Origin: Microbacterium lacus | GTDB taxonomy: Bacteria; Actinomycetota; Actinomycetes; Actinomycetales; Microbacteriaceae | Assembly (NCBI RefSeq): GCF_002812805.1 | Contig: NZ_NMUM01000030.1 | Coordinates: 372,001-436,000 of the forward strand | DNA: 64,000 nt | Direction of reading: 5' to 3' | Shown here: in pieces, positions 23,441 through 49,288 of the stretch | How positions within the stretch are numbered: position 1 is the stretch's first letter | How the letters are laid out: each line of letters opens with the position of its first letter | The notes under the pieces: generated by a model | The model's input: only the letters and a program-made list of their open reading frames with translations | Told to the model about the DNA's origin: nothing | Database searches by the model: none | Translations under genes and position numbers: made by a program

Positions 23441-24094
23441 TTACAGCAGGGGTTCGATACGGGCTCGCACGCGCGCGGCGAGCTCGTCGGCGGTAAGGGT
23501 CGCGTCGAGCACGAGGAACCTCCCCGGCTCGGCCGAGGCCAGATCGAGGAAGGCGGTGCGTACGCGGGTGTGAAAGTCTTCGCGCTCGGCCTCGAGCCGA
23601 TCGAACGGCTTGTCATCGGCGTCGAGTCGGGCTCGCGCGGCAGCCGGATCGAGGTCGAGCAGAATCGTCACGTCGGGCAGTTGCCCGCCCGTCGCCCACA
23701 GCGAGAGGTCCCGCACCTCGGTGGCGTCGAGCACTCGTCCGGCGCCCTGATACGCGACGGATGAATCGAGGTAGCGATCCTGCACGACCACGTCGCCGCG
23801 CTCGAGCGCCGGAAGCACCAGCGTCTGGACGTGCTGAGCACGGTCGGCCGCGTAGAGCAGCGCCTCGGCGCGCGGCGCCACCTCGCCCCGGTGGTGCAGC
23901 ACGATGTCGCGGATCAGCACACCGACCTCGGTGCCGCCGGGCTCGCGCGTGCGGACGACGTTGCGACCGGATGCCTCGAGCCACTCCTGCAGCAGGGCGG
24001 CCTGCGTCGTCTTTCCGGCGCCGTCGCCGCCCTCGAGCGTGACCCACAGGCCCGGGCGCCGGGTTACCGCAGCGCCCCCGGCATCCGTCATCAC
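23441..24094 (-). CDS. tmk: Thymidylate kinase
   Basis: This 217-residue P-loop kinase has GGDGAGKTT (22-30), the TMP-binding DRYLDSSVAYQGAGR motif and the LID segment after DLDPAAARARL. It phosphorylates dTMP to dTDP. The first two codons are GTG-ATG, and the start overlaps the topA stop, so topA and tmk are translationally coupled. The order topA-tmk-holB on one strand is common in Actinobacteria and supports the assignment. Confidence 0.93.
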   Translation of the reverse strand: MMTDAGGAAVTRRPGLWVTLEGGDGAGKTTQAALLQEWLEASGRNVVRTREPGGTEVGVLIRDIVLHHRGEVAPRAEALLYAADRAQHVQTLVLPALERGDVVVQDRYLDSSVAYQGAGRVLDATEVRDLSLWATGGQLPDVTILLDLDPAAARARLDADDKPFDRLEAEREDFHTRVRTAFLDLASAEPGRFLVLDATLTADELAARVRARIEPLL

Positions 24095-26805
24095 TTCTTC
24101 TTGGCCGGCGCCTTGCGGGCGGCGGGCTTGCGAGCGGTGCGCTTGGGCGCGGGACCCTTCGCCCGCTTGTCGGCGAGGATCTGCACGGCACGTTCGAAGT
24201 CGATGTCTTCGACGCTCTCACCGCGCGGGATGGTCGCGTTCGTCTCGCCGTCGGTCACATAGGCGCCGAAGCGGCCGTCGCGGATGCGGATCGGCTTGCC
24301 GCTGACCGGGTCCGCCTCGAATTCCTTGAGCGCACTCGACGGGCGGCGGGCGCCGTACTTCGGCAGGGCGTACACGGCGAGCGCGCCGGGCAGGTCGATG
24401 TCGAAGATCTGCTGCTCGTTCTCGAGCGAACGCGAGTCCGTGCCCTTCTTCAGGTACGGTCCGTACCGGCCGTTCTGCGCCGTGATGACCTCGCCCGATT
24501 CGGGGTCGGTGCCGACCGTGCGGGGCAGTTCGAGCAGGCGCAGGGCCGTCTCGAGGTCGATCGTGTCGACCGACATGCTCTTGAACAGCGAGGCGGTGCG
24601 GGGCTTGGGCGCGACCTCTTTCTTCGCGCCGCGCTTCTTCGGTGCGGGGGCGTCGACGATCTCGCCGGTCGCCTCGTCCACGCCGGCGGGTTCTTCGGGC
24701 TCGAGCTCCTGCACGTAGGGGCCGTAGCGGCCGTCCTTGACGACGATGAGCTTGTGCGTCTCGGGGTGCTCGCCGAGCACACGATCCCCGGCGACGGGTG
24801 CCTCGATGAGCTCCTGCGCCTTGGCGGGGGTGAGTTCGTCGGGCGCGAGATCCTCCGGCACATTCACGCGGCGCGGGTCCGCCTCCGGGTTGGCGGGGTC
24901 GACGACCTCGAGGTAGGGGCCGTACTTGCCGATGCGGAGCGTCACGCCCTCCGATACCGGGCGCGAGTTGAGTTCGCGGGCATCGATCTCGCCGAGGTTG
25001 TCGACGATGTTGCGCAGCCCCGCGTGATCCTCGGATCCGAAGTAGAACTCGCGCAGCCACGACACCCGGCCCTGCTCGCCGCGGGCGATCGCGTCGAGGT
25101 CGTCCTCGAGTGCGGCCGTGAAGTCGTAGTCGATCAGGTCGGGGAAGTTCTCCTCCAGCAGCCGCACGACGCTGAAGGCGATCCAGCTCGGCACGAGGGC
25201 CTGGCCGCGCTTGGTGACGTACCCGCGGTCGAGGATCGTGTCGATGATGCTCGCGAAGGTCGACGGGCGCCCGATCCCCTTCTCCTCCAGCGCCTTGACG
25301 AGGGATGCCTCGGTGTAGCGCGGCTTCGGGGTGGTCTGGTGGCCCTTGGGCTCGACCTCGGTGACCTGCAGCGCGTCGCCGACGGCGACCTGCGGCAGCG
25401 ACTGGTCGTCGGCCTTGTCGGCGTCGCCGCGCTTCTCGTCCCGGCCTTCTTCGTATGCCTCGAGGAATCCCTTGAAGGTGTAAACGGTGCCGGATGCGGT
25501 GAACTCGACGCGGCGCTCACCCGCTGCGACCTCGAGGGTCACGGTGGTGGTCTCGTACTTGGCGTCGGCCATCTGGCTCGCGACGGTGCGCTTCCAGATC
25601 AGGTCGTACAGGCGCTGTTCGTCGCGATCGAGCGATCCACTCAGCGACGCAGGGGTGCGGAAGTGCTCGCCCGAAGGACGGATCGCCTCGTGCGCCTCTT
25701 GGGCGTTCTTGCTCTTGCTCTTGTAGACGCGGGGGTTGAGGGGCACGGCCGCCGAGCCGTACAGCTGCACGGCCTGCTCGCGCGCGGCCTGGATCGCCTG
25801 CGTACCCAGCGACACCGAGTCGGTTCGCATGTAGGTGATGTAACCCTTTTCGTACAGCCGCTGAGCGACGCTCATGGCGTGCTTCGCGCTCATCGAGAGC
25901 TTGCGACCGGCCTCCTGCTGCATCGTCGAGGTCGTGAAAGGGGCGTACGGGCTGCGCGTACCGGGCTTGGCCTCGACGCGGGTGACGGATGCCTCCCCCG
26001 CCGTCTGCACGTCGGTTGCGAGTTGGCGGGCCGCGGCCTCGTCGAGCACGACCACGGCCTTCTTCAGCTGACCCTTGTCATCGAAGTCGGTTCCGCGCGC
26101 GATGGCCGCGCCGTCGATGCGGACGAGTTTGACGCCGAAGGCGGAGGCATCCTTCTCTACCTGAGCCTCGATGTCCCAGTAGTTGGCGCCGACGAAGGCG
26201 ATGCGCTCGCGCTCGCGGTCGACGACGAGGCGCGTGGCGGCGGACTGGACGCGGCCGGCCGAGAGGGCGGCGCCGTTGCTGCCGGAGCCGATCTTGCGCC
26301 AGAGCACGGGCGAGACGTCCCAGCCGTACAGACGGTCGAGGATGCGGCGGGTCTCTTGCGCGTCGACGAGGTCGTGGTCGAGCTCGCGCGTCTTCTCGAC
26401 GGCGGCCTGGATCGCGTCTTTGGTGATCTCGTGGAACACCATGCGCTTGACCGGGACCTTCGGCTTGAGCGTTTCGAGCAGGTGCCACGCGATGGCTTCG
26501 CCCTCGCGGTCCTCATCAGTGGCCAACAGGAGTTCGTCGGCACCCTTGAGCGCTCGCTTGAGTTCGGCGACGGTCTTCTTGCCGCGGTCGCTCTCGACGT
26601 AAAAGGGGGCGAAGTCGTTCTCGATGTCGATCGAGTACTTACCGACCGAGGTCTTCTTCAGGTCGGCGGGGATGTCCTTCTTGTCGGCGAGATCACGGAT
26701 GTGTCCGACAGACGACAACACTTCGTAGTCGTCGCCGAGGTACGACTGGATCGACTTCATCTTCGTCGGAGACTCGACGATGACGAGCTTCTTGCTGGTG
26801 GCCAC
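24091..26805 (-). CDS. topA: DNA topoisomerase I
   Basis: This 904-residue type IA topoisomerase has an N-terminal TOPRIM domain (LVIVESPTK and the acidic cluster ATDEDREGEAIAWHL), the catalytic tyrosine in GYITYMRTDSV and several C-terminal DNA-binding repeats of the form DGRYGPYVQ and NGRYGPYLK. It ends in a Lys/Ala-rich tail (RTARKPAARKAPAKKK) typical of Actinobacteria. It relaxes negative supercoils. I chose the GTG at 26805 because MATSKKLVIVESPTK is the conserved beginning and AAGGA lies upstream. An ATG 11 codons further up is less likely. Confidence 0.93.
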   Translation of the reverse strand: MATSKKLVIVESPTKMKSIQSYLGDDYEVLSSVGHIRDLADKKDIPADLKKTSVGKYSIDIENDFAPFYVESDRGKKTVAELKRALKGADELLLATDEDREGEAIAWHLLETLKPKVPVKRMVFHEITKDAIQAAVEKTRELDHDLVDAQETRRILDRLYGWDVSPVLWRKIGSGSNGAALSAGRVQSAATRLVVDRERERIAFVGANYWDIEAQVEKDASAFGVKLVRIDGAAIARGTDFDDKGQLKKAVVVLDEAAARQLATDVQTAGEASVTRVEAKPGTRSPYAPFTTSTMQQEAGRKLSMSAKHAMSVAQRLYEKGYITYMRTDSVSLGTQAIQAAREQAVQLYGSAAVPLNPRVYKSKSKNAQEAHEAIRPSGEHFRTPASLSGSLDRDEQRLYDLIWKRTVASQMADAKYETTTVTLEVAAGERRVEFTASGTVYTFKGFLEAYEEGRDEKRGDADKADDQSLPQVAVGDALQVTEVEPKGHQTTPKPRYTEASLVKALEEKGIGRPSTFASIIDTILDRGYVTKRGQALVPSWIAFSVVRLLEENFPDLIDYDFTAALEDDLDAIARGEQGRVSWLREFYFGSEDHAGLRNIVDNLGEIDARELNSRPVSEGVTLRIGKYGPYLEVVDPANPEADPRRVNVPEDLAPDELTPAKAQELIEAPVAGDRVLGEHPETHKLIVVKDGRYGPYVQELEPEEPAGVDEATGEIVDAPAPKKRGAKKEVAPKPRTASLFKSMSVDTIDLETALRLLELPRTVGTDPESGEVITAQNGRYGPYLKKGTDSRSLENEQQIFDIDLPGALAVYALPKYGARRPSSALKEFEADPVSGKPIRIRDGRFGAYVTDGETNATIPRGESVEDIDFERAVQILADKRAKGPAPKRTARKPAARKAPAKKK

Positions 26806-26877
26806 GGGGGTCCTTTCTCCGATGCACACCATACACACCGCAGACTGTGAGCCGGGTCGGGGCGGCTCCGCACCCCC

Positions 26878-37370: not shown

Positions 37371-37411
37371 TGCAACCTCCAGGACGACGGCATCGGCAGA
37401 AATTCCGCATC

Positions 37412-37485
37412 GGCCCAGGCGAGCGGTCGAATGCCGTAGTCAGTCGCTCCCCGGTGGTCACCCACCCGAACGCCAGTCGCGACAT
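37412..37485 (-). promoter_or_regulatory. ZTP riboswitch (pfl motif) upstream of glyA
   Basis: Reading leftward the leader has an opening stem around GACTGGCG, a GGGTGG-TGA-CCACC hairpin, the conserved GGGGAGCGA and, after a linker, GACCGCTCGCCTGGGC. GGGAG with a downstream CGCCTGGGC is the core of the ZTP/ZMP aptamer, where the two pair as a pseudoknot. glyA is among its common targets. An expression platform before the ATG at 37370 cannot be resolved by eye. Confidence 0.8.
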
Positions 37486-37579
37486 GGCGAGTCTACCGGA
37501 TGCTCCGACATCCGCTCTCTCCGGATGTCCTCCGATGTCGGCCACGAAAACCGCGCCGTAGCGGCCGGACCCGGGGTTT

Positions 37580-37594
37580 GTTAGGTTTCCTTAC
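37580..37594 (+). promoter_or_regulatory. ROK-type operator abutting the GH20 start, with a TAGGTT -10-like element
   Basis: GTTAGGTTTCCTTAC runs up to the ATG at 37595. It shares GTTAGNNNNCCTTAC with the operator at 50585 in front of the ROK regulator. TAGGTT within it is a -10-like hexamer seven bases before the ATG, and no ribosome site is seen. A leaderless transcript controlled by the ROK protein is therefore likely. Confidence 0.5.
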
Positions 37595-39082
37595 ATGATC
37601 CCCTACCCGGCACGCGTCGAGCCCAGCGACGGGGCGCTTTCGCTCGCCGGGGGGCTCGTCGTCCTCGCCGACCCGGGGGCGTCACACGAGGCGCGAGAGT
37701 TGGCACGTTCCATCACGGTGCGCACCGGCCTGACCTCGACGGTTCAGACGACCGATGCATCCGCGCCCCACCCCGGGGCGATCCGGCTGCGCCTCGACCC
37801 GAACGTCGGGCTTACGGCGGAGGCCTACACACTGCGGACGGATGCCTCCGATGCGGAAATCGTCGCCGCAACAACCACCGGCCTGTTCTACGGGGCGCAA
37901 ACACTCGTCCAGGCGATCGAGGCCGGCACCGACGGCGGCACCTGGCACCTTCCCCACCTGACGATCGAGGACACCCCGCGCTTCGCCTATCGCGGCATGA
38001 TGCTCGATGTCGCGCGGCACTTCTTCTCGGTCGAGGACGTGTGCGCCGTCATCGACCGAGCCGCAAGCCTGAAGCTCAACCACCTGCACCTGCACCTCAG
38101 CGACGACCAGGGGTGGCGCCTGCAGATCGACACCTGGCCCCGGCTGACGGGGCCCGAGGCATCCGCGAGCTTCTATAGCAAGGCCGACTACCGGCGCATC
38201 GTCGAGTACGCAGAGACCCGACACATGACCGTCGTGCCCGAGATCGACATGCCCGGCCACACGCACGCGGTCGGCATCGCCTACCCCGAGCTGGTCGAGG
38301 CCCCGGTCATCTCCGACGCACTGCGCGCGCAGGTCGCCGAGCTCGGCCAGCAGCTGCCCGAGTCGGGCGTGCCGTTCACCGGGTGGGCGGTGGGGTTCTC
38401 GTCCCTGCGGATCGGTGACGAGACGGTCGACCGATTCGTGCACGATGTGGTCCGCGAACTCGCCGAGGTGACGCCCGGGCGGTACCTGCACATCGGGGGC
38501 GATGAGGCCCTTGGCACGGCGCCCGCCGACTTCGCCGCCTTCGTCAGCCGCGCAGCCCACGTCGTCCGCGAGGTCGGCAAGATCCCGATCACCTGGCAGG
38601 AGGCCGGGGCGGTCGCCGAGCTTCCGGCGGGCACGGTCGGGCAGTACTGGGGCTTCGTCGCCCCGCAGGATGGCCACGACGACCTCGCGCGTGCGTTCGT
38701 CCGGAACGGTGGCCGAGTCATCCTGTCCCCCGCGGACGCGGCGTACCTCGACATGAAGCCCGACGCCGAGAGCGCCCTGGGGCTCACCTGGGCGAACGGA
38801 CCCACGAGCCTCCGCCGCGCCTACGAGTGGGAGCCACTCGCGGTGGTCGAGGGTCTCACCGAGCGCGACATCCTGGGGGTCGAGGCGGCGCTCTGGACCG
38901 AGACCGTCGAGACCCTCGCCGACATTGACGCCCTCGTCTTTCCGCGGATCGCGGCCGCGGCGGAGATCTCCTGGTCCAACCCGCCCGCGATGTCGGCGGC
39001 GCGCACATGGGAGTCCTTTCGCGAGCGAGTCGATGCGCTCGCACCGCTCTGGCTCGCCGCGGGAATCGGTGGGGCGCGATGA
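37595..39082 (+). CDS. Beta-N-acetylhexosaminidase, glycoside hydrolase family 20
   Basis: This 495-residue GH20 enzyme has a small N-terminal alpha/beta domain, then the barrel with the catalytic Asp-Glu pair in HIGGDEALG, plus MPGHTHAV and SDDQGWRLQID. It releases terminal GlcNAc from chitooligosaccharides or glycans by substrate-assisted catalysis. No signal peptide is visible, so it acts on imported oligosaccharides. It is the first gene of an operon with nagA, coupled by ATGA. The promoter region shares a motif with the ROK-regulated GlcNAc operon at 44-50 kb. Confidence 0.92.
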   Translation: MIPYPARVEPSDGALSLAGGLVVLADPGASHEARELARSITVRTGLTSTVQTTDASAPHPGAIRLRLDPNVGLTAEAYTLRTDASDAEIVAATTTGLFYGAQTLVQAIEAGTDGGTWHLPHLTIEDTPRFAYRGMMLDVARHFFSVEDVCAVIDRAASLKLNHLHLHLSDDQGWRLQIDTWPRLTGPEASASFYSKADYRRIVEYAETRHMTVVPEIDMPGHTHAVGIAYPELVEAPVISDALRAQVAELGQQLPESGVPFTGWAVGFSSLRIGDETVDRFVHDVVRELAEVTPGRYLHIGGDEALGTAPADFAAFVSRAAHVVREVGKIPITWQEAGAVAELPAGTVGQYWGFVAPQDGHDDLARAFVRNGGRVILSPADAAYLDMKPDAESALGLTWANGPTSLRRAYEWEPLAVVEGLTERDILGVEAALWTETVETLADIDALVFPRIAAAAEISWSNPPAMSAARTWESFRERVDALAPLWLAAGIGGAR

Positions 39083-40353
39083 GCTTCATCGTGCACTCGG
39101 CGCGGCTGGTGGCGCCCACACTCGAGGCCGCAACATCAGGCAGCGGGGCAACGTCCGGCATCGTCCGGGACGAATCGGATGCCTGGCTGCGCGTCGAAGG
39201 CGGGCTCATCGTCGCGCAGGGCACGGGTGACTCCTGGCGTGCCGCGGCGCACGACAACGATCGGATCGTGGATGCCGCTGCAACGGCGGGCCCGGGCGCC
39301 GTGCTCACGCCCGGCCTCATCGACATCCACGTCCACGGCGGCGGGGGCGCGTCCTACGACGGCGATCGCGCCGGCGCTCGCGGCGGGTCCCGCGGCACCG
39401 ATGTGCCAGAGGACCCGGATGCCGCGATCGCCCATGCCCTCGCGACGCACGGCGCACACGGCACGACTCGCGCCGTGCTCTCGCTCGTCACCGCACCCGT
39501 GTCCGACCTCGAACAGCGTGTCCGCCGCATCGCGCGGCTCAGCAAGTCTCAGCCGGGCATCCTCGGCTCCCACCTTGAGGGCCCCTTCCTCGACCACGAC
39601 CGCCGCGGCGCGCACGACCCCGCCCAGCTGAGGGCACCGAACACCACCGACCTCGAGCGGCTGCTCGCCGCGGGTGAGGGGACGGTGCGCCAGGTGACGC
39701 TCGCGCCGGAGCATCCGGGTGCGATCGAGGCGATAACTCAGATCGTCGTGGCCGGCGCGGCGGCCGCGATCGGGCACACCGGCGCGGATCTGGCGACCGC
39801 CCGTGCCGCGTTCGACGCGGGAGCCACGATCCTCACCCACGCCTTCAACGCCATGCCGGGCCTGCATCATCGCGACCCGGGGCCCGTGGCGGCCGCGGCG
39901 ATCGACGAACGGGTCACCCTCGAGGCCATCGCAGACGGGGTGCACCTCGACCCCGCGGTCGTGCTCTTGCTGTTCCGCATGGCGCCCGGACGGATCGCCC
40001 TCATAACCGACGCGATGGCCGCGGCGGGCGCGGACGACCGCGACGGAGACTGGGTCCTCGGGGCACGCTCCGTGGAGGTGCGTGATGGCATCGCACGACT
40101 TCGTGGCAGCGACACCATTGCCGGATCGACCCTGACGTCGGACCGCGCGCTGCGGATCGCCATCCGCTCCGGCGTACCCCTGACGGAGGCGGTACGCGCG
40201 CTGACGACGACACCCGCGCGTGCCGTCGGGCACCCCGAACTCGGGACGTTGGATGACGGGGGCCCCGCGGATCTCGTCCTCTGGGATCGGGATTTCCGCG
40301 TCCGCGCCGTGTGGCGCGCGGGCGAACCCGTGCCGCGGGCCGGCGCGTCCTGA
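39079..40353 (+). CDS. nagA: N-acetylglucosamine-6-phosphate deacetylase
   Basis: This 424-residue amidohydrolase has the metal motif GLIDIHVHGGGG, the metal-ligand Glu in GSHLEGPF, HTGADLATA, HAFNAMPGLHHRDPG and the catalytic Asp in ALITDAMAA. It deacetylates GlcNAc-6-P to glucosamine-6-P and acetate. The ATG at 39079 overlaps the GH20 stop; the frame upstream is not needed. Together with nagB at 44.2 kb it completes the path to fructose-6-P, although the two genes are 4 kb apart. Confidence 0.93.
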   Translation: MSFIVHSARLVAPTLEAATSGSGATSGIVRDESDAWLRVEGGLIVAQGTGDSWRAAAHDNDRIVDAAATAGPGAVLTPGLIDIHVHGGGGASYDGDRAGARGGSRGTDVPEDPDAAIAHALATHGAHGTTRAVLSLVTAPVSDLEQRVRRIARLSKSQPGILGSHLEGPFLDHDRRGAHDPAQLRAPNTTDLERLLAAGEGTVRQVTLAPEHPGAIEAITQIVVAGAAAAIGHTGADLATARAAFDAGATILTHAFNAMPGLHHRDPGPVAAAAIDERVTLEAIADGVHLDPAVVLLLFRMAPGRIALITDAMAAAGADDRDGDWVLGARSVEVRDGIARLRGSDTIAGSTLTSDRALRIAIRSGVPLTEAVRALTTTPARAVGHPELGTLDDGGPADLVLWDRDFRVRAVWRAGEPVPRAGAS

Positions 40354-40752
40354 CACCGTCTTCAGCATCCCCATGCCTCGGGTCCGGTTCGCGCCCGTGT
40401 CCCCTTGAGTCCCGCGGCGACGAAATGAGGCGGGGCGTGGATCCGGATCGGCCTCCCCCCGGATGACCACCCGAAAGCCACGCCCCGCGGCTGCGACGTC
40501 CAGCGCCGCAGCGACTTCGCACCATCCCCCCGGAAGGATCGAAGCGCGTCTCTCACCCAAGAGATGCCCATCGAGGGAGTTCATTACGCGAGTTATGGAA
40601 ACTTTTTCGAGTCGTCCGCGTGAGCATCCCTCCCCGTCGCACCGCGGGACGTGGACAATGGAGAGAACTGCGTCATAAAGCGGCCGCCCCTGCGTCTCTC
40701 TGAGTGAGACGAAAATCGGGCACGGCCGACAGGACGAGTACGGGGAATCTGC
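40354..40752. other. 399-bp intergenic region after nagA
   Basis: It holds an 11-bp inverted repeat, GCGGGGCGTGG (40430-40440) with its complement at 40478-40488, across a 37-nt loop, a possible nagA terminator without a T-tract. From about 40580 the DNA is less GC-rich and leads to the sigma-factor start, where a promoter must lie. I see no gene. Confidence 0.55.
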
Positions 40753-41898
40753 ATGGAGAGCGACGAGGTCGACACGACGCCGACAGGCGATGGCGACGCC
40801 GACCTCGTCTTGCGCGCCCGCTCGGGCGACGGCGAGGCCTATGCCGAACTCTGGCGACGCCACTACCGGTCGGGCATCACCGTCGCACGCTCGATCACGA
40901 GTTCTCTCGACCCCGACGACCTGGTGCAAGAGGCATACGCACGGATCTACCAGTCCATCCGCCGGGGCGGCGGGCCCACAGGGTCGTTCCGCGCCTACCT
41001 GTTCACGAGTATCCGCAACACCGCGGCGGGGTGGGGCCGTGCCCGCCGAGAAACCGCGATCGACGAGCTCGACGCCGTCGAAGACCCCGCGTCAACGCCC
41101 GAGGCGACGGCGGACGCACTCGATCGCGGACTGACGCACCGCGCCTTCCGCAGCCTGCCGACGCGCTGGCAGGAGGTGCTCTGGTACTCCGAGATCGAGG
41201 GCATGAAGCCCGCCGAGATCGCGCCCCTGCTGGGGCTCAAGCCGACGGCCGTCGCACAGCTCGCGTTCCCGATCATGGCCCTCGCGGCCATGCCGTCGAG
41301 TCTGATGCCCGGGGCTGTCACCGTCGCGGGCGGGAGCGGTGCGGCGGCGAGCGGCGCGGGCTCTTTCGCGGGCGGCGCGGGCTCTGGCGGCGCGGCCGCG
41401 GCTGCTTCGGGCTCTGGCGCGGCGGCGGGCTCTGGTGCGGCGGCGGGCTCTGCCGCTTCGGGCGCCGGGGGCGCGGTGGTAGGAGCCGCCGCCGCGGGCA
41501 CGGCGACGGCGGGCGCGGCAGGGATCTTCTCGGGCGCGGGGCTTGCGGTCGCGATCGCCGTCGGCGCCGTCGTGACCGGCGGAACCGTCCTCGGGGTCAC
41601 TGTGGGGCCGTCCCTCTTCGCGCCCGCGGCAGCCGAGCCGAGTTCGGCCGCGGCCGTGGCGTCTCCTTCAACGTCATCGGCTCCCTCGCCGTCGGCTCTG
41701 CCGTCCACGGAGTCCACGGATATCCCGATCGACAGCTCATCCAGTCCCGCCGCCGAACCGGTTGCTCCGCTCCCGCCCACGAGCCGGCAGATCCGACCCC
41801 GGCATCGAGCCCGGCGCCGAGCACCGAGCCCGTACCCCCGGCGACACCCGCAGATCCGGTGGATCCCGTCGATCCGGTGGAACCCGTGGATCCCGTAG
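40753..41898 (+). CDS. ECF-type sigma factor with a transmembrane C-terminal extension, frameshifted
   Basis: Residues 17-95 form sigma region 2 (DLVQEAYARIYQSIRRGG) and 115-172 region 4 (RWQEVLWYSEIEGMKPAEI with HTH). After AQLAF at 172 the expected end of region 4 is replaced by MALAAMPSS, an Ala/Gly run (about 185-260) and a hydrophobic helix (about 262-285). A Ser/Pro-rich tail follows. In the relatives I recall, region 4 continues and a zinc-finger domain lies between it and this membrane part, so an internal deletion is likely. From about 41775 the frame leaves the natural reading and ends in a non-homologous tail at 41898. The next frame continues the exported part. As read, the sigma domain is missing its last helix. 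Confidence 0.7.
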   Translation: MESDEVDTTPTGDGDADLVLRARSGDGEAYAELWRRHYRSGITVARSITSSLDPDDLVQEAYARIYQSIRRGGGPTGSFRAYLFTSIRNTAAGWGRARRETAIDELDAVEDPASTPEATADALDRGLTHRAFRSLPTRWQEVLWYSEIEGMKPAEIAPLLGLKPTAVAQLAFPIMALAAMPSSLMPGAVTVAGGSGAAASGAGSFAGGAGSGGAAAAASGSGAAAGSGAAAGSAASGAGGAVVGAAAAGTATAGAAGIFSGAGLAVAIAVGAVVTGGTVLGVTVGPSLFAPAAAEPSSAAAVASPSTSSAPSPSALPSTESTDIPIDSSSSPAAEPVAPLPPTSRQIRPRHRARRRAPSPYPRRHPQIRWIPSIRWNPWIP

Positions 41899-42260
41899 AC
41901 CCCGTAGACCCCGTCGATCCCGTCGACCCGGTCGACCCCGTGGATCCGGTCGATCCCGATCAGCCCACAATTCCCCCGGGCGGGCCCACCGAGTTCTCCG
42001 TCACGAGCACAATCACCCTCGCCGCAGCCACCCTGAACATCTCCGTGGTCGGCGAAGAGGGCGCAACCCTTTCCGTGGACGTCGACGGCGTCACACGTTC
42101 CACCGTCATGCTGGGGCCCGGCGGCGTCGGCGCGCTGTCGGTGCCGTTCTCCCTCGTCGAGTACACACTCGCTCCCGTCACCGTCCGCTACGTCCCGACG
42201 AGCGGATCACCGATCGAGGTCGCGGGTTCGTCCGCTCTCGTCTGGGATCTGACGAACTGA
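41775..42260 (+). pseudogene. Out-of-frame C-terminus of the sigma factor: Pro-Val-Asp repeats and a small beta domain
   Basis: In the +0 frame relative to 41778 the sequence reads HEPADPTPASSPAPST, then about a dozen PVD units (41852-41958), then a compact domain with FSVTSTITLAAATLNISVVG and LSVDVDGVTRSTVMLGPG. It ends VWDLTN at 42260. It continues the exported extension of the upstream sigma gene if one base is restored in the C-rich run near 41772-41778. A stalk of PVD repeats carrying a beta-sandwich suggests a wall-spanning sensor attached to a membrane sigma factor. It has no start of its own. Confidence 0.6.
41852..41958 (+). repeat. Nine-base tandem repeat coding Pro-Val-Asp
   Basis: About twelve units of the form CC(G/C)GT(G/C/A)GA(T/C) follow each other with silent drift; one unit has Glu for Asp. 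The repeat forms an elongated, uncharged-to-acidic stalk. Synonymous variation shows selection on protein, not a fresh expansion. Confidence 0.85.
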
Positions 42261-44105: not shown

Positions 44106-44145
44106 GCTGCGGGTCGAGCGCGAAGCGGGGCAGGTTTCGTGCATT

Positions 44146-44169
44146 TGGGGCAGGTTTCTCCGTGCCCCA
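44146..44169. terminator. Hairpin between the oxidase and nagB
   Basis: TGGGGCA (44146-44152) pairs with TGCCCCA (44163-44169) in the 108-bp gap between convergent genes. The GGGGCAGGTTTC element also occurs once just upstream as a direct repeat. No T-tract is present; it may serve both directions. Confidence 0.4.
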
Positions 44170-44213
44170 CTGCACCTACGGTGCCCCACATCGTGTCTGT
44201 CGGCGTCGTCGGA

Positions 44214-44993
44214 CTACAGCCCCTGCCAGGCCGGCTTGTGCGCCCACGTCTCGCGGTAGTAGCCCGCGAAGCGCAGGGCGGACGCCGCGGCCTCGTCCAC
44301 GACGACGGTCGTGTGCGGATGCAGCTGGATGGCCGACCCGGGCAGCGACGCGGTGAGGGGCCCCTCGACGGCACCCGCGACCGCGGCGGCCTTGCCCACC
44401 CCGAACGCCAGCAGCACCAGGTGCCGTGCGCGCAGGATCGTGCCGAGGCCCTGCGTGATGCAGTGCACCGGAACATCGTCGATCGAGGCGAAGAATCGCG
44501 CGTTGTCTTCCCGGGTGCGCCGGGTCAGGGTCTTCACGCGCGTGCGCGACGCAAACGACGACCCCGGCTCGTTGAACCCGATGTGCCCGTCACTGCCGAT
44601 CCCGAGCAGCTGAAGATCCACGCCGCCGGATGCCTCGAGCTCGGCCTCGTACGCCTCGCCCGCGTGCTCGATCCCCGTCAGCGACCCGTCGGGCACCCCC
44701 ACCCGCTCCGGGTCAAGCCCGAGCGGCTCGACGACCTCGCGCCGGATCACGCTGCGGTAGCTCTGCGGATCGTCGGGGGCCAGGCCCACGTACTCGTCGA
44801 GGGCGAACGCGCGGACGCGCGAAACGTCCCTGCCCGCCAGTCGCTCCACCAGCGACCGATAGACCGGAAGCGGGCTCGACCCCGTCGCCAGGCCCAGCAC
44901 CACGTCGGGGCGCCCGGCGATCAGGCGCACGATCTCGTCGGCGACGAGGGCACCGCCCGTCGCGGCATCCGGAACGATGACGACCTCAGCCAT
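44214..44993 (-). CDS. nagB: Glucosamine-6-phosphate deaminase
   Basis: This 259-residue enzyme has the base Asp in FALDEYVGL, the catalytic cluster GIGSDGHIGFNEPG (Asp, His, Glu) and the substrate phosphate-binding loop ATGSSPLPVY. It converts glucosamine-6-P to fructose-6-P and ammonium. It is the last gene of the ROK-SBP-permease-permease-kinase-nagB operon and overlaps the kinase gene by 8 bp. A TAG stop and a hairpin end the operon. Confidence 0.95.
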   Translation of the reverse strand: MAEVVIVPDAATGGALVADEIVRLIAGRPDVVLGLATGSSPLPVYRSLVERLAGRDVSRVRAFALDEYVGLAPDDPQSYRSVIRREVVEPLGLDPERVGVPDGSLTGIEHAGEAYEAELEASGGVDLQLLGIGSDGHIGFNEPGSSFASRTRVKTLTRRTREDNARFFASIDDVPVHCITQGLGTILRARHLVLLAFGVGKAAAVAGAVEGPLTASLPGSAIQLHPHTTVVVDEAAASALRFAGYYRETWAHKPAWQGL

Positions 44994-45978
44994 GAATCAG
45001 AACCCCTTCCTCCGGCGCTCCCGACAGTGCGGCGCCGAGAGCGGCAGCCGGCGAACCCGGCGGGAGCAATTCCACACGGTCGGCGAGCGCGAGTGAACGC
45101 AGGAAGACGGATGCCTCGGCCACCGCCTCGAGCTCGCGCCGCACGTCGTCGTGCAATCGTGCACCGAGCGCGGTCAGTCCGCCACCGAGAACGACGGTCT
45201 CGACATCCGTCGTGAGGACCAGTATCCGCACCGCCGCCGCGACTCCGCGCGCGAGCTCGCCGCGGAGCGTCAGCGCGAGCGGATCGCCCGACTCGGCCGC
45301 GTCGAAGATGTCCCCCACAGGATGAGTGCCCGGTCGCCCCCACCGTTCGGCGAGCGCGGCGCCCCCTGCGAGGGCTTCGATGCATCCGCGCTGTCCACAC
45401 CGGCACATCGGTCCCGCGGGATCCACGCTGATGTGACCGACCTCGCCGGCCGCGCCGCGCGAACCACGCCAGACCGCGGGCACCGTCTCGCGCCCAGAAC
45501 CCGCCGCAGCTATCGACCCCGCTAGAGAGCCCGTCACAAAGCCCGTCACGATCCCCGCGGCGATGCCCGTCCCGAGGTTCAGGTACCCAATCGACCCCGA
45601 ACCCCCGCGCAACACGGCGGCGCCGAGCGCCGCGGCCCGCACGTCGTTGTCGACGTATACCTGCACCCCCAGCGTCGACGCGACGGTGTCGCCGAGGTCG
45701 AGCGACTCGATGCCCAGGTTGACGGCATGCTCTACCCACAGGGAGCCGGGCGCGATCTGGCCCGGGATGCCGATGCCGACCGACGCGATCTGCGGCGCAG
45801 CCCCCGACGCCTCGGCGCCCAGCTCGGCCCCGAGGTCGGCAACGACCCCGAGGATCGTCTCGACCACGGCATCCGGACCCCACCCCGTGGCGCGGCGCAC
45901 GCGAGCCACAATCGACCCGTCCGGCGCGACGGCGACTCCCTCGGTCTTCGAACCGCCGACGTCCAGCCCGACCCTCAT
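44986..45978 (-). CDS. ROK-family sugar kinase, probable N-acetylglucosamine kinase
   Basis: The protein is about 330 residues with the ATP-binding DVGGSKTEG at the N-terminus, the active-site Asp in VYVDNDVRAAA and the zinc-binding CRCGQRGCIEA near the middle. The ROK family phosphorylates glucose, GlcNAc or mannose. Placed between a chitobiose-type importer and nagB, GlcNAc or chitobiose-derived GlcNAc is the likely substrate. The ATG at 45978 is preferred to a GTG ten codons upstream because MRVGLDVGG is the usual ROK start. It overlaps nagB by 8 bp. Confidence 0.87.
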   Translation of the reverse strand: MRVGLDVGGSKTEGVAVAPDGSIVARVRRATGWGPDAVVETILGVVADLGAELGAEASGAAPQIASVGIGIPGQIAPGSLWVEHAVNLGIESLDLGDTVASTLGVQVYVDNDVRAAALGAAVLRGGSGSIGYLNLGTGIAAGIVTGFVTGSLAGSIAAAGSGRETVPAVWRGSRGAAGEVGHISVDPAGPMCRCGQRGCIEALAGGAALAERWGRPGTHPVGDIFDAAESGDPLALTLRGELARGVAAAVRILVLTTDVETVVLGGGLTALGARLHDDVRRELEAVAEASVFLRSLALADRVELLPPGSPAAALGAALSGAPEEGVLIHG

Positions 45979-46021
45979 CGCCCGGCCCCCGATCGAGGGA
46001 CGGTGCACACCGGATCACCCA

Positions 46022-46969
46022 TCAGCCCTTGACCGCCCCCGAGACGAGGCCGCTCGTCATCCGTCCCTGCACGATGAGGAAGAAGATCACGACCGGCACG
46101 GCGACCAGCGTCGACCCGGCCATCAGCTCGGCCCAGTTCGTGCCGCCGTTCGGGTCGAGGAACGTCCGCAGCCACACCGGAAGCGTCATGGCCTCGGGGC
46201 GCGGGTTGAGCACGAGCGCGAAGACGAACTCGTTCCACGCTTGGATGAAGCCGAACACGCCGGTCGCGACCAGCCCGGGCGCGAGCAGCGGGAACGTGAT
46301 GCGCCAGAACGCCTGCGAGCGGCTCAGCCCGTCGATCATCGCGGCTTCTTCGAGTTCGACCGGCACGCCGTTGACGAAGCCCCGCAGCGTCCAGATCGTG
46401 AACGGCAGGACGGTCGCGATGTAGACCGCTGAGAGCCCGATGATCGTGTTGAGCAGCTGCCATCCGTCGACGAGTCGGAAGGTCGAGATGATCATCGCCT
46501 CGGCGGGAATCATCTGCACGATCAGGATCGTCGCGATGAACGAACCCCGAGCCCGGAAGCGGAACCGCGTCACGGCGAGTGCCGCGAGAAAAGCGAAGAC
46601 GAGCGCCACGATCACGGTGATGAGCGCGATCTGCAGCGAGTTCAGCAATGCCGGCACGAACGGCGCACGGGTCTGCCCGAGGATGATGCTCGCGTAGTTC
46701 TCGAGCGTGCCGTTGTCGGGCCACAGGTGCAGTTCACTCCCCCGCACCTGCCCGTTCGGCTGGAACGAGGTGTTGACCATCCAGTACACGGGGAAGACCG
46801 AGAAGAAGAAGACCACGAGCGCCGCCACACCGGCGAGCAGCGACCCCGTGCGGCGGCGCGCCGAGATCTTGCGGCGCGGCGGGCGTGCAGCGCGGGACGG
46901 ACGCGTCGAACGAGCGGATGCCTCGGCATCCGTCCGCCCAATGTTGCGCCGCGTCGAAACGGCGCTCAT
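46022..46969 (-). CDS. Carbohydrate ABC transporter permease (MalG-like)
   Basis: This 315-residue membrane protein has six hydrophobic segments and the EAA loop LEEAAMIDGLSRSQAFWRIT that binds the ATPase. It forms the CUT1-type importer channel with the upstream permease. Its start overlaps the MalF-like stop by 4 bp. As usual for CUT1 systems in Actinobacteria, no ATPase is in the operon, so a shared MsiK-type ATPase probably serves it. The N-terminal tail is Arg-rich and cytoplasmic. Confidence 0.9.
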   Translation of the reverse strand: MSAVSTRRNIGRTDAEASARSTRPSRAARPPRRKISARRRTGSLLAGVAALVVFFFSVFPVYWMVNTSFQPNGQVRGSELHLWPDNGTLENYASIILGQTRAPFVPALLNSLQIALITVIVALVFAFLAALAVTRFRFRARGSFIATILIVQMIPAEAMIISTFRLVDGWQLLNTIIGLSAVYIATVLPFTIWTLRGFVNGVPVELEEAAMIDGLSRSQAFWRITFPLLAPGLVATGVFGFIQAWNEFVFALVLNPRPEAMTLPVWLRTFLDPNGGTNWAELMAGSTLVAVPVVIFFLIVQGRMTSGLVSGAVKG

Positions 46970-47967
46970 GCGCTCTCCTCCCGCAGGCTTCGGCGAACGT
47001 AGAACAACGAGACTCCGACGAGCATCAGCACGACGATGACCGAGATCGCGCCGCCCGCGCCGAAGTCGCCCGAGCCGAGCGAGACGCGGTAGATGTACAC
47101 CCCGAGCGTGTTCGTCTGGGATGCGAGACCGCCGATCGACTGCAGCGCGTAGATCTGCGTGAACACCCGCAGGTCCCAGATGACCTGCAGGATCGTCACG
47201 ATGATGAGGATCGAGCGGATGTACGGCACGACCACGAGCCGGAACCGTTGCACGGCCCCTGCCCCATCGAGCTGCGCGGCTTCGAGCACCTCATCCGGTA
47301 CCTGCGTGAGACCCGCGTACACCGTGAAGGCAACGAAGGGCACGGCACCCCAGACGATGATGATCGTCGCGACGAAGAAGAAGCTGAGCGGATCGATCAG
47401 CCACGAGTGCCCCTCGAACGGCAGACCGAGCGCGCTGAGAAACGCGTTCAACACCCCGTACTGCGTGTCGAAGATCCAGCCCCAGACAATCGTCGCCGAC
47501 AAGGGCGGCATGGCCCACGCGAGCAGCAGCCCCACCGAGACGAGGGTGCGCAGGCCCGTGCCGAGCCGCCGCATGAGCAGGGCGACCAGGATGCCGAGCA
47601 GCATCGTCAGCACGACACACACGGCCGCGAACAGCACCGAACGGCCGAGCACCTGCCAGAACTCGGCGTCTGTCAGTACGGCGAGGTAATTCGCCAGCCC
47701 GACGAATTCGGGCGGCGCACCGAACACCTGAGCCCGACCGAATTCCTGGAAAGACATGACGAACAGCTGCACGAGGGGCCAGCCGGTGATCACGGCGAGC
47801 ACGAGCAACCCGGGCCCCAGGAGTGCGTAGGGCGTGAATCCGCCGGGCCGGCGGGACCGGCGTCGACCGCCGCGCTGCCGGTCGGGGACGGGTGGTTCGG
47901 GGGCGACGAGCCGCTCTCCCTCGACCGCACTCACGGCCGGGGCGAGTCCGCGGGGGACGCTCGACAT
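46966..47967 (-). CDS. Carbohydrate ABC transporter permease (MalF-like)
   Basis: This 333-residue permease has six to seven hydrophobic segments and the EAA loop VLEAAQLDGAGAVQRFRLVV. It is the partner of the MalG-like protein. The ATG at 47967 has CAGGAGA at good spacing, and the frame beyond it is unrelated. It follows the binding protein by 97 bp. Its charged N-terminus (GGRRRSRRPGG) lies before the first helix. Confidence 0.9.
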   Translation of the reverse strand: MSSVPRGLAPAVSAVEGERLVAPEPPVPDRQRGGRRRSRRPGGFTPYALLGPGLLVLAVITGWPLVQLFVMSFQEFGRAQVFGAPPEFVGLANYLAVLTDAEFWQVLGRSVLFAAVCVVLTMLLGILVALLMRRLGTGLRTLVSVGLLLAWAMPPLSATIVWGWIFDTQYGVLNAFLSALGLPFEGHSWLIDPLSFFFVATIIIVWGAVPFVAFTVYAGLTQVPDEVLEAAQLDGAGAVQRFRLVVVPYIRSILIIVTILQVIWDLRVFTQIYALQSIGGLASQTNTLGVYIYRVSLGSGDFGAGGAISVIVVLMLVGVSLFYVRRSLREESA

Positions 47968-48064
47968 GGGATCTCCTGCTCGGGAGGCGAATGGGCGGGT
48001 GATGAACGAATGAGGGACGGATGCGCGGGGCCGGAGGAGCGCGCGGCTCCCCCGGCCCGCCCGA

Positions 48065-49288
48065 TCAGCCGTTGAGGATCGACTCGATCTGCGTGTCGAC
48101 CTCGGTCGCGAGCGCCGCGACGTCGCCGCCGAGCGCGATCTGCACGAAGAAGTCTTCGAGAACACGCGATGCCTCGACCTCGGCCCAGTTCGGCGACGCG
48201 GGCGTGAGCTTGGCGTTGCTCGCGGCTTCGGTGAAGGCGACGGCCTCGGGGGTGTCGCCGAGCGTCGATGCAAGCGACTTCTTGGCCGGGATGAGGCCGT
48301 TCTCGCCGTAGATCGTCTGGAACTCATCGCTCAGGATGATTGCCAGGGCGCTCTTCGCCAGGTCGGGATTGGCCGACTGGGCGGAGATTCCGATGTTGGA
48401 GCCGCCCGCGAAGACCTGCGCGGCCCCGCCGTCCATGCCCGGGAGGGCGTAGACGAACGGAGCTGCCGGCGGGGTCGCCGTCTCGCACGCGCTGGCGAGC
48501 CCGAGCGCCCAGTTCGGCGCCGAGAACTGCACGGCCTGGTTCTCGCAGTACGGGGTCCAGGGCTCGGCATTGTCGCCGTCCTTCGGTGCGAGCGAGGCGT
48601 TCATCATCAGGTCCTGCACCTGCAGCAGACCCGCGACCGAGGCATCCGATGACAATCGGGCGTCCCAGCTGTCGCCATCCGGGACGGCGATCTCGCCGCC
48701 GTTCTCCCAGATGAAGGGCAGCGCGTTGTACCAGTCCTGGCCGGCGAAGTAGATGCCGGACTTCCCGGGGTTCGCCGCGGCGAGCGCCTTCGCGCTCGTG
48801 ACGTACTCGTCGAGTGTTGCGGGCGCGGCCGTCACCAGGGCGGGGTCGGCGAAGACCACCCGAGCGCCCGAGTACAGGGGCGGAGCGAAGAACTGCCCGT
48901 CGTAGGACCCGGCCTCGACGAAGCCCGGCAGCAGGTCGTCGCCGCCGAGTGCCTCGTACTCGTCCGTGAGGTCGAGCAGGGCGCCCACTGAGGTGAAGGC
49001 GGCCGCCTGGGTGTTACCGAACTCGACGATGTCGGGGCTGTCCGAGCTCGACAGGCTGGTCGTGAGTTTGTCAACGAGTCCGTCCCACGACTGCTCTTCG
49101 ATCACGAGGGTCGAGCCGGGGTTGTCGGCCTCGAAGGTCTCGACGAGGTAGTCCCGAGCCGCTTGCGGGGTGTCCGTTCCGGCTAGCCACACCCGGATCT
49201 CGGCGGATTCCGACGATCCGGCGGTGCAGCCGGCGAGGACGAGGGCGGATGCCCCGAGCAGGGCCATGGCCCCGAGCGTCTTCTTCAT
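48065..49288 (-). CDS. Carbohydrate-binding ABC lipoprotein of the GlcNAc/chitobiose operon
   Basis: This 407-residue extracytoplasmic solute-binding protein has a signal peptide ending in the lipobox LAGC (lipidated C21) and the family-1 SBP fold, with WTPYCENQAVQFSAPNW and a long C-terminal helix region. It captures the oligosaccharide for the two permeases. The ATG at 49288 has AAGGAA. The operon context (ROK kinase, NagB) suggests GlcNAc or chitobiose, but binding residues cannot be read from sequence. Confidence 0.9.
   Translation of the reverse strand: MKKTLGAMALLGASALVLAGCTAGSSESAEIRVWLAGTDTPQAARDYLVETFEADNPGSTLVIEEQSWDGLVDKLTTSLSSSDSPDIVEFGNTQAAAFTSVGALLDLTDEYEALGGDDLLPGFVEAGSYDGQFFAPPLYSGARVVFADPALVTAAPATLDEYVTSAKALAAANPGKSGIYFAGQDWYNALPFIWENGGEIAVPDGDSWDARLSSDASVAGLLQVQDLMMNASLAPKDGDNAEPWTPYCENQAVQFSAPNWALGLASACETATPPAAPFVYALPGMDGGAAQVFAGGSNIGISAQSANPDLAKSALAIILSDEFQTIYGENGLIPAKKSLASTLGDTPEAVAFTEAASNAKLTPASPNWAEVEASRVLEDFFVQIALGGDVAALATEVDTQIESILNG

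Follow-up and report, generated by a model that had tools for sequence, protein, structure and literature searches.

The segment from position 40753 to 42260 of the window (the whole 64,000-nucleotide stretch of DNA analysed here, from the Microbacterium genome G000, a 3.49-Mb assembly in 44 contigs) carries an extracytoplasmic function (ECF) sigma factor gene that was probably broken recently, and is best described as a young pseudogene of a known fused sigma/anti-sigma system with two lesions. Fused proteins of this kind form the ECF52 group, exemplified by SCO4117 of Streptomyces coelicolor. According to the model given in the available parts of PMC8999054 and PMC5826349, their fused zinc finger acts as the inhibitor, and proteolysis that follows an outside signal releases the sigma factor. 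By analogy, the sigma domain of the intact Microbacterium family would be held at the membrane by its inhibitor and set free by proteolysis in response to an outside signal. The ancestor of the window copy would have been such an ECF52-like fused protein. A 291-nucleotide in-frame deletion would have cost the gene its inhibitor and first hydrophobic segment as well as the terminal part of the sigma-4 recognition helix, and a one-base frame step in the linker would have severed the stalk and the sensor. Both differences are present in the assembled sequence and are rare in our sample, and the codon patterns of the sigma domain and of the stalk are conserved.

The window gene and its intact relatives

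The close relatives found come from Microbacterium, and the nearest of them is the gene of Microbacterium sp. BR1 (locus L003), whose sigma domain is 93% identical to the one of the window; genome G280 is identical to BR1 across the query. The BR1 gene is a single unbroken frame of 596 amino acids in which sigma regions 2 and 4 are followed by the zinc-finger anti-sigma domain zf-HC2 (expectation value (E) 4.3e-9), hydrophobic segments, a PVD-repeat stalk and a beta domain predicted to be immunoglobulin (Ig)-like. The zf-HC2 domain was found in all four relatives scanned (BR1, L004, L005 and L007). The window copy is organized as follows:

40753–41268 (+): ECF sigma domain, regions 2 and 4, terminating within the region-4 recognition helix (Pfam; tblastn with BR1, 93% identity over 172 codons)
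41268–41269 (+): deletion junction, where 291 nucleotides of BR1 (L003 5517–5807, residues 173–269) are absent (comparison with BR1)
41269–41640 (+): Gly/Ala-rich linker and the two hydrophobic segments kept, residues 174–192 and 264–282 (hydropathy scan, BR1 alignment)
41640–41768 (+): Ser/Pro-rich linker in the sigma frame, until the frame step (sequence reading, BR1 alignment)
41760–41780 (+): approximate place of the one-base frame step, with runs of at most CCC, inside an imperfect repeat spaced 26 nucleotides (41745–41795)
41781–41898 (+): out-of-frame tail past the frame step, up to the stop codon of the 381-residue frame
41847–41958 (+): PVD-repeat stalk, open in the second frame; reported repeat periods of 9, 18 and 27 nucleotides
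41964–42257 (+): predicted Ig-like beta-sandwich domain, open in the second frame, stop codon at 42258–42260 (AlphaFold2, structural matches, family profile)

The first frame (40753–41898) codes 381 amino acids and its stop codon falls inside the stalk region. The stalk and the small domain are open in another frame (41769–42257), in which the repeat finder located an array of 9-base units (41853–41958) that corresponds to the PVD stalk. Pfam recognizes Sigma70_r2 (E 2e-9) and Sigma70_r4_2 (E 2.5e-6) in the window protein, and TIGR02937 is matched alongside them in both this protein and the one of BR1. Region 4 is truncated in the window, where it covers positions 5–46 of the 54-position Pfam profile versus 5–52 in BR1. 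Neither the Pfam scan nor a search of the genome with the anti-sigma segment found a zf-HC2 or other zinc-finger anti-sigma domain for the window copy. G000 holds no further close copy of the gene, its second match being only 30% identical.

The 291 nucleotides (97 codons) missing relative to BR1 leave the reading frame unchanged. The deleted residues 173–269 hold the stretch RAREGLREAW, zf-HC2 (196–229) and the first hydrophobic segment (239–261); the ends of the deletion share about one base, as read from the alignment. In a set of 33 relatives (L003–L007 and L015–L043, minus the duplicate L039), RAREGL stands at the end of sigma region 4 in 32 and the motif HxxxCxxC is found in all 33. The window reads F-P-I-M at the RAREGL position, with a proline right after F172. 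The RARE of BR1 aligns with the FRARE of Escherichia coli sigma E, in which R176 and R178 make contact with a base of the −35 element and with the backbone, respectively (PMC6713349, in the part available). Because the deletion takes this stretch, whose sigma E arginines contact the −35 element, and places a proline after F172, part of the recognition helix appears from the alignment to have been lost together with the inhibitor.

A preliminary description of this DNA, made from its letters alone, had read the coding order as sigma regions 2 and 4, a hydrophobic helix, the PVD stalk and a beta domain, and Pfam, the hydropathy scan (residues 264–282) and the repeat array bear this order out. 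It had also placed a frameshift before the stalk and the domain, in agreement with the stop of the 381-residue frame inside the stalk region and with the out-of-frame match of the domain profile given below. Its picture of a single lesion was therefore right about the frame break and overlooked the larger 291-nucleotide deletion. The one-protein signalling system that it proposed fits the intact relatives, but the system is of a known kind (ECF52, SCO4117) and the window copy lacks the anti-sigma domain.

The absence of the anti-sigma segment is exceptional when counted per genome, not per copy, in a sample of 366 genomes of the genus Microbacterium. The query combining the sigma and anti-sigma parts of BR1 is matched in 268 of them at E 1e-20 or better, and the anti-sigma segment alone in 265 at E 1e-5 or better. 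Only G000, G274 and G275 among the 268 miss the anti-sigma segment, and the sigma matches of G274 and G275 are weak (E about 1e-30). A single genome of the 266 with a strong sigma match, G000, has no anti-sigma match. Among the best matches listed for the combined query, all extend to query residue 268 or further.

The frame step, codon conservation and competing explanations

A profile of the C-terminal domain built from 17 relatives, window excluded, recognizes the window domain with E 3.8e-17, out of frame with the sigma domain. In 23 of the 33 relatives the outer domain is in frame with sigma. The other ten comprise seven genes that run into a contig end, one that is out of frame over a gap of 10 N, one without a recognisable domain and one insufficiently covered. 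Relatives that end near residue 380 in the first frame would have spoken against the preliminary description; the 22 relatives with both a stop codon and an in-frame domain extend over 515–763 residues from the start of the sigma match. When eight further genomes chosen for short frames were added, one gene was complete and in frame, five were cut by a contig end (one of these shows the domain start in frame) and two had the outer domain out of frame. The latter are L060 (G299, completeness 92%) and L062 (G023, completeness 83%), each in a genome with a match to the anti-sigma segment. Such cases mark the linker as a place where assembly tends to fail.

Within positions 41740–41800 the longest homopolymer run is CCCC, and 41772–41778 holds CCC G CCC. 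An imperfect repeat spaced 26 nucleotides lies across the site of the frame step. A 26-nucleotide tandem duplication was considered as the origin of the step and rejected, since the two halves agree at only 19 of 26 positions, which makes a recent duplication unlikely. The site reads better as a 9-residue protein repeat that is one base short. The remainder of the window was compared with BR1 in the same respect: 38 non-overlapping conserved BR1 frames, some of them shadow frames, were mapped to the window and six were flagged as split over frames (five of 36 in the reverse scan). We judge that only the sigma gene among these six is truly broken, the others being three ABC-transporter paralogues and two shadow frames.

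Codon comparison between the window and BR1 gave 62 synonymous and 14 non-synonymous differences over the 172 codons of the sigma domain (ratio of non-synonymous to synonymous rates (dN/dS) 0.05), and 18 and 3, respectively, over the 37 codons of the stalk (0.024). The ratio is 0.27 for the Gly/Ala linker with the last hydrophobic segment, 0.61 for the beta domain and 0.069 for the neighbouring DUF2568 gene. The low values for sigma and stalk argue that their reading frames were maintained over most of the divergence, which leaves either recent lesions or a frame step that is an artefact. The value of the beta domain looked like relaxation but is not unusual: among 17 relatives, the 25 closest pairs shown comprise 24 at 0.69–1.40 and one (L024/L030) at 0.20, in a comparison where the synonymous sites of the domain are partly saturated. 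By these pairwise values the outer domain changes fast between species.

Given the two lesions and the cut recognition helix, the gene is most likely a young pseudogene. We infer that the window copy has lost its function and that its frame step exists in the genome and is no sequence error. Several observations weigh against this view. The deletion is in frame, an outcome expected by chance in one case out of three. The sigma domain of the window has a mean dN of 0.150 to 33 loci (a set that counts both L004 and the duplicate L039) versus 0.159 for BR1, with the window higher in only 4 of the 33, which shows no relaxed evolution on the window side. A sequence error in the linker is possible in view of the seven contig ends and the N gap reported above. 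Finally, counted per copy, absence of the anti-sigma segment is less rare. Copies were checked in eight genomes, namely G030, G355 and six chosen because their sigma matches outnumber their anti-sigma matches; G355 gave no match. The best copy covers the anti-sigma segment in all seven others, and three of 17 weaker paralogues, L104 (G111), L106 (G201) and L107 (G002), match only up to query residue 185–194, before that segment. These three are 36–41% identical to BR1 (31–53% for all 17 weaker matches), and may be separate sigma factors or carriers of a divergent inhibitor.

The alternative that survives best, although we find it rather unlikely, keeps the deletion and takes the frame step for a sequencing or assembly error. 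The gene would then code an in-frame protein made of the sigma domain, linker, hydrophobic segments, stalk and Ig-like domain, devoid of an anti-sigma domain. This would suit the constrained appearance of the stalk codons and the tendency of the linker to break assemblies, seen in the relatives with contig ends or an N gap and in G299 and G023. In the ECF52 orthologue of Streptomyces clavuligerus, the proline-rich region likewise contains a stop codon, for which the authors suspect a sequence error (PMC5826349, in the part available). Against such an error stand the quality of the G000 assembly (completeness 99.98%, contamination 0.32%), the judgement that no other frame of the window is truly broken relative to BR1, and the lack of a long homopolymer at the site.

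It is improbable that the truncated protein is functional and under selection, as an inhibitor-less allele of one Microbacterium lineage that still works, anchored in the membrane through the hydrophobic segments it has kept, and acts as a constitutive or dominant-negative sigma factor. The in-frame deletion does take out the whole inhibitor, and the dN/dS of 0.05 and the unrelaxed window branch would fit a sigma domain in use. In addition, an S. coelicolor strain that retains the first 305 residues of SCO4117, which hold the sigma domain, displays activated SCO4117 expression and is less severely affected than the full deletion strain (PMC5826349, in the part available). However, the end of the region-4 recognition helix is also lost, with a proline in place of a motif that 32 of the 33 relatives carry, and the low dN/dS may mostly date from before the lesions.

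We consider it no more probable that both differences are assembly errors and that the gene of the strain is intact. The high G+C content of the region, its repeats and the contig breaks to which it is prone in the relatives speak for such errors, yet no repeat is seen at the ends of the 291-nucleotide gap, which makes it unlike a repeat collapse, and a search of the rest of the assembly with the missing segment gave nothing at E 1e-5.

A phase-variable or programmed frameshift switch, the idea put forward in the preliminary description from a C-rich homopolymer at 41772–41778, is highly improbable in spite of the frame change at the proline-rich junction: that site holds only CCC G CCC, no run in 41740–41800 exceeds four bases, the outer domain is in frame in most relatives and the lone out-of-frame case among the 33 spans the 10-N gap. 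The homopolymer switch was rejected because neither these runs nor the stalk repeats provide what marks a phase-variable gene, a homopolymer or short tandem repeat whose changes in length shift the frame, and programmed frameshifting because of the in-frame relatives, no slippery heptamer being seen by eye at the junction. The reported periods of the stalk are multiples of 9 nucleotides, so that changes in its copy number keep the frame, and a change of run length in the linker would restore neither the anti-sigma domain nor the helix end.

Gene neighbourhood and upstream sequences

The gene glyA lies upstream of the sigma gene in L003–L007. A hexosaminidase gene and nagA stand between the two in the window, L004, L005 and L006, and were not found there in L003 (BR1) and L007. 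Genes of N-acetylglucosamine (GlcNAc) type, named by eye, flank the sigma gene of the window on both sides: hexosaminidase and nagA at 37518–40421, and nagB, a ROK kinase and sugar ABC permeases at 44115–48065. Four of these genes are found in L004 and the first two in both L005 and L006; BR1 has none at that place. Downstream of the sigma gene, the window shares a DUF2568 gene with L003, L004 and L005. A ZMP/ZTP riboswitch precedes glyA in the window (37406–37490, minus strand; 50.7 bits) and is also present in L003–L007.

Two possible hairpins with C-rich loops are located upstream of the sigma gene at about 40395–40550. Four stem pairs of one of them were counted in 26 of 35 upstream regions, where 86 of 97 cells hold a standard pair and both sides of the stem show changes; the other nine regions had been removed by eye before the count (other hairpin, other layout or duplicate), a choice that favours the stem. 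These hairpins resemble the actinobacterial 6C RNA, but the Rfam scan gave no 6C match upstream of the sigma gene. Two conserved words were found upstream of the gene in relatives, ATTACGCG in 24 of the 35 regions and CGCGTCTC, which adjoins a near-palindrome, in 15. They are possible candidates for a promoter or operator.

About 43 kb (window positions 1–26000 and some 17 kb to their left; about 355000–398000 of contig C36 of G000) are 98–100% identical to two BR1 contigs, while the other stretches compared with BR1 are about 70–94% identical. The right edge of this block lies within or near topA (24091–26838, named by eye). This identity points either to DNA recently exchanged between species or to faulty assembly of one of the two genomes.

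The outer domain and likeness to known sigma factors

The 98-residue outer domain of the window was modelled by AlphaFold2 from five sequences with seven strands, a predicted local distance difference test score (pLDDT) of 86.0 and a predicted template modelling score of 0.76. VIA-align returned matches up to Z 8.4, mostly of Ig type, on a scale where a best Z of 7–8 is usual without a clear match. For the model these matches point to a common arrangement only, and the domain is predicted to be Ig-like. Foldseek found no structure at E 0.001 or better; a weak row is the sensor of the anti-sigma factor RsgI4 (7cg5, E 0.064). The outer domain of the Microbacterium proteins scanned has no Pfam match. 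At E 0.01, a search of the genus with the window's own 94 domain residues gave matches in 12 of 198 genomes, G000 among them and regardless of gene family. The full-length AlphaFold model of BR1 (five sequences) is poor (pLDDT 48.3) and yields no docking between sigma and anti-sigma parts. Comparison of the anti-sigma segment with the sequences of solved structures gave nothing significant (best E 0.41 and 0.46, the second being the anti-sigma factor DdvA).

The hydropathy scan found at least three hydrophobic segments in each of five relatives. BR1 has three, of which the window keeps two, by hydropathy only. If all three span the membrane, the outer domain would be outside. Loss of the first segment would then invert everything that follows it in the window copy, a prediction that depends on the middle segment spanning the membrane.

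The intact relatives are described here as ECF52-like by their layout, by which ECF48 and ECF53 are not told apart from ECF52. Sigma regions 2 and 4 are found in BR1 and, with region 4 truncated, in the window. The zinc finger that follows region 4 in ECF52 is present in the relatives and missing in the window, so that the ancestor fits the group and the present copy does not. The layout further includes the Pro-rich linker and the PVD stalk, out of frame in the window. ECF52 members carry an annotated carbohydrate-binding module, and the available part of PMC10766802 assigns predicted carbohydrate domains to ECF52/53; the outer domain of the Microbacterium proteins scanned has no such annotation and is predicted to be Ig-like. 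In ECF48 and ECF53, a zinc-finger anti-sigma domain is fused at the C-terminus and accompanied by one or two membrane helices (PMC8999054, in the part available). The same source describes IutY of Pseudomonas putida (ECF243) as a sigma factor fused to a membrane anti-sigma factor, with proteolytic release and an active truncated form. IutY differs in being an iron-starvation cell-surface signalling protein of Pseudomonas, and the likeness is one of description. ECF52 is not mentioned in the available part of PMC8103513, and the titles and abstract openings of the five papers listed for Microbacterium on ECF and anti-sigma factors do not name the protein.

The apparent switch is thus most likely a lesion in a known family of one-protein signalling systems. 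If the loss of the inhibitor is true, this natural allele would be a ready-made test of the autoinhibition model. In the intact family, found in most of the genomes of the genus surveyed, the sigma domain is strongly conserved and the outer domain, of predicted Ig-like fold, changes rapidly. This family is more interesting than the break itself, and its fast-evolving outer domain makes it a good system to study what such sigma factors sense.
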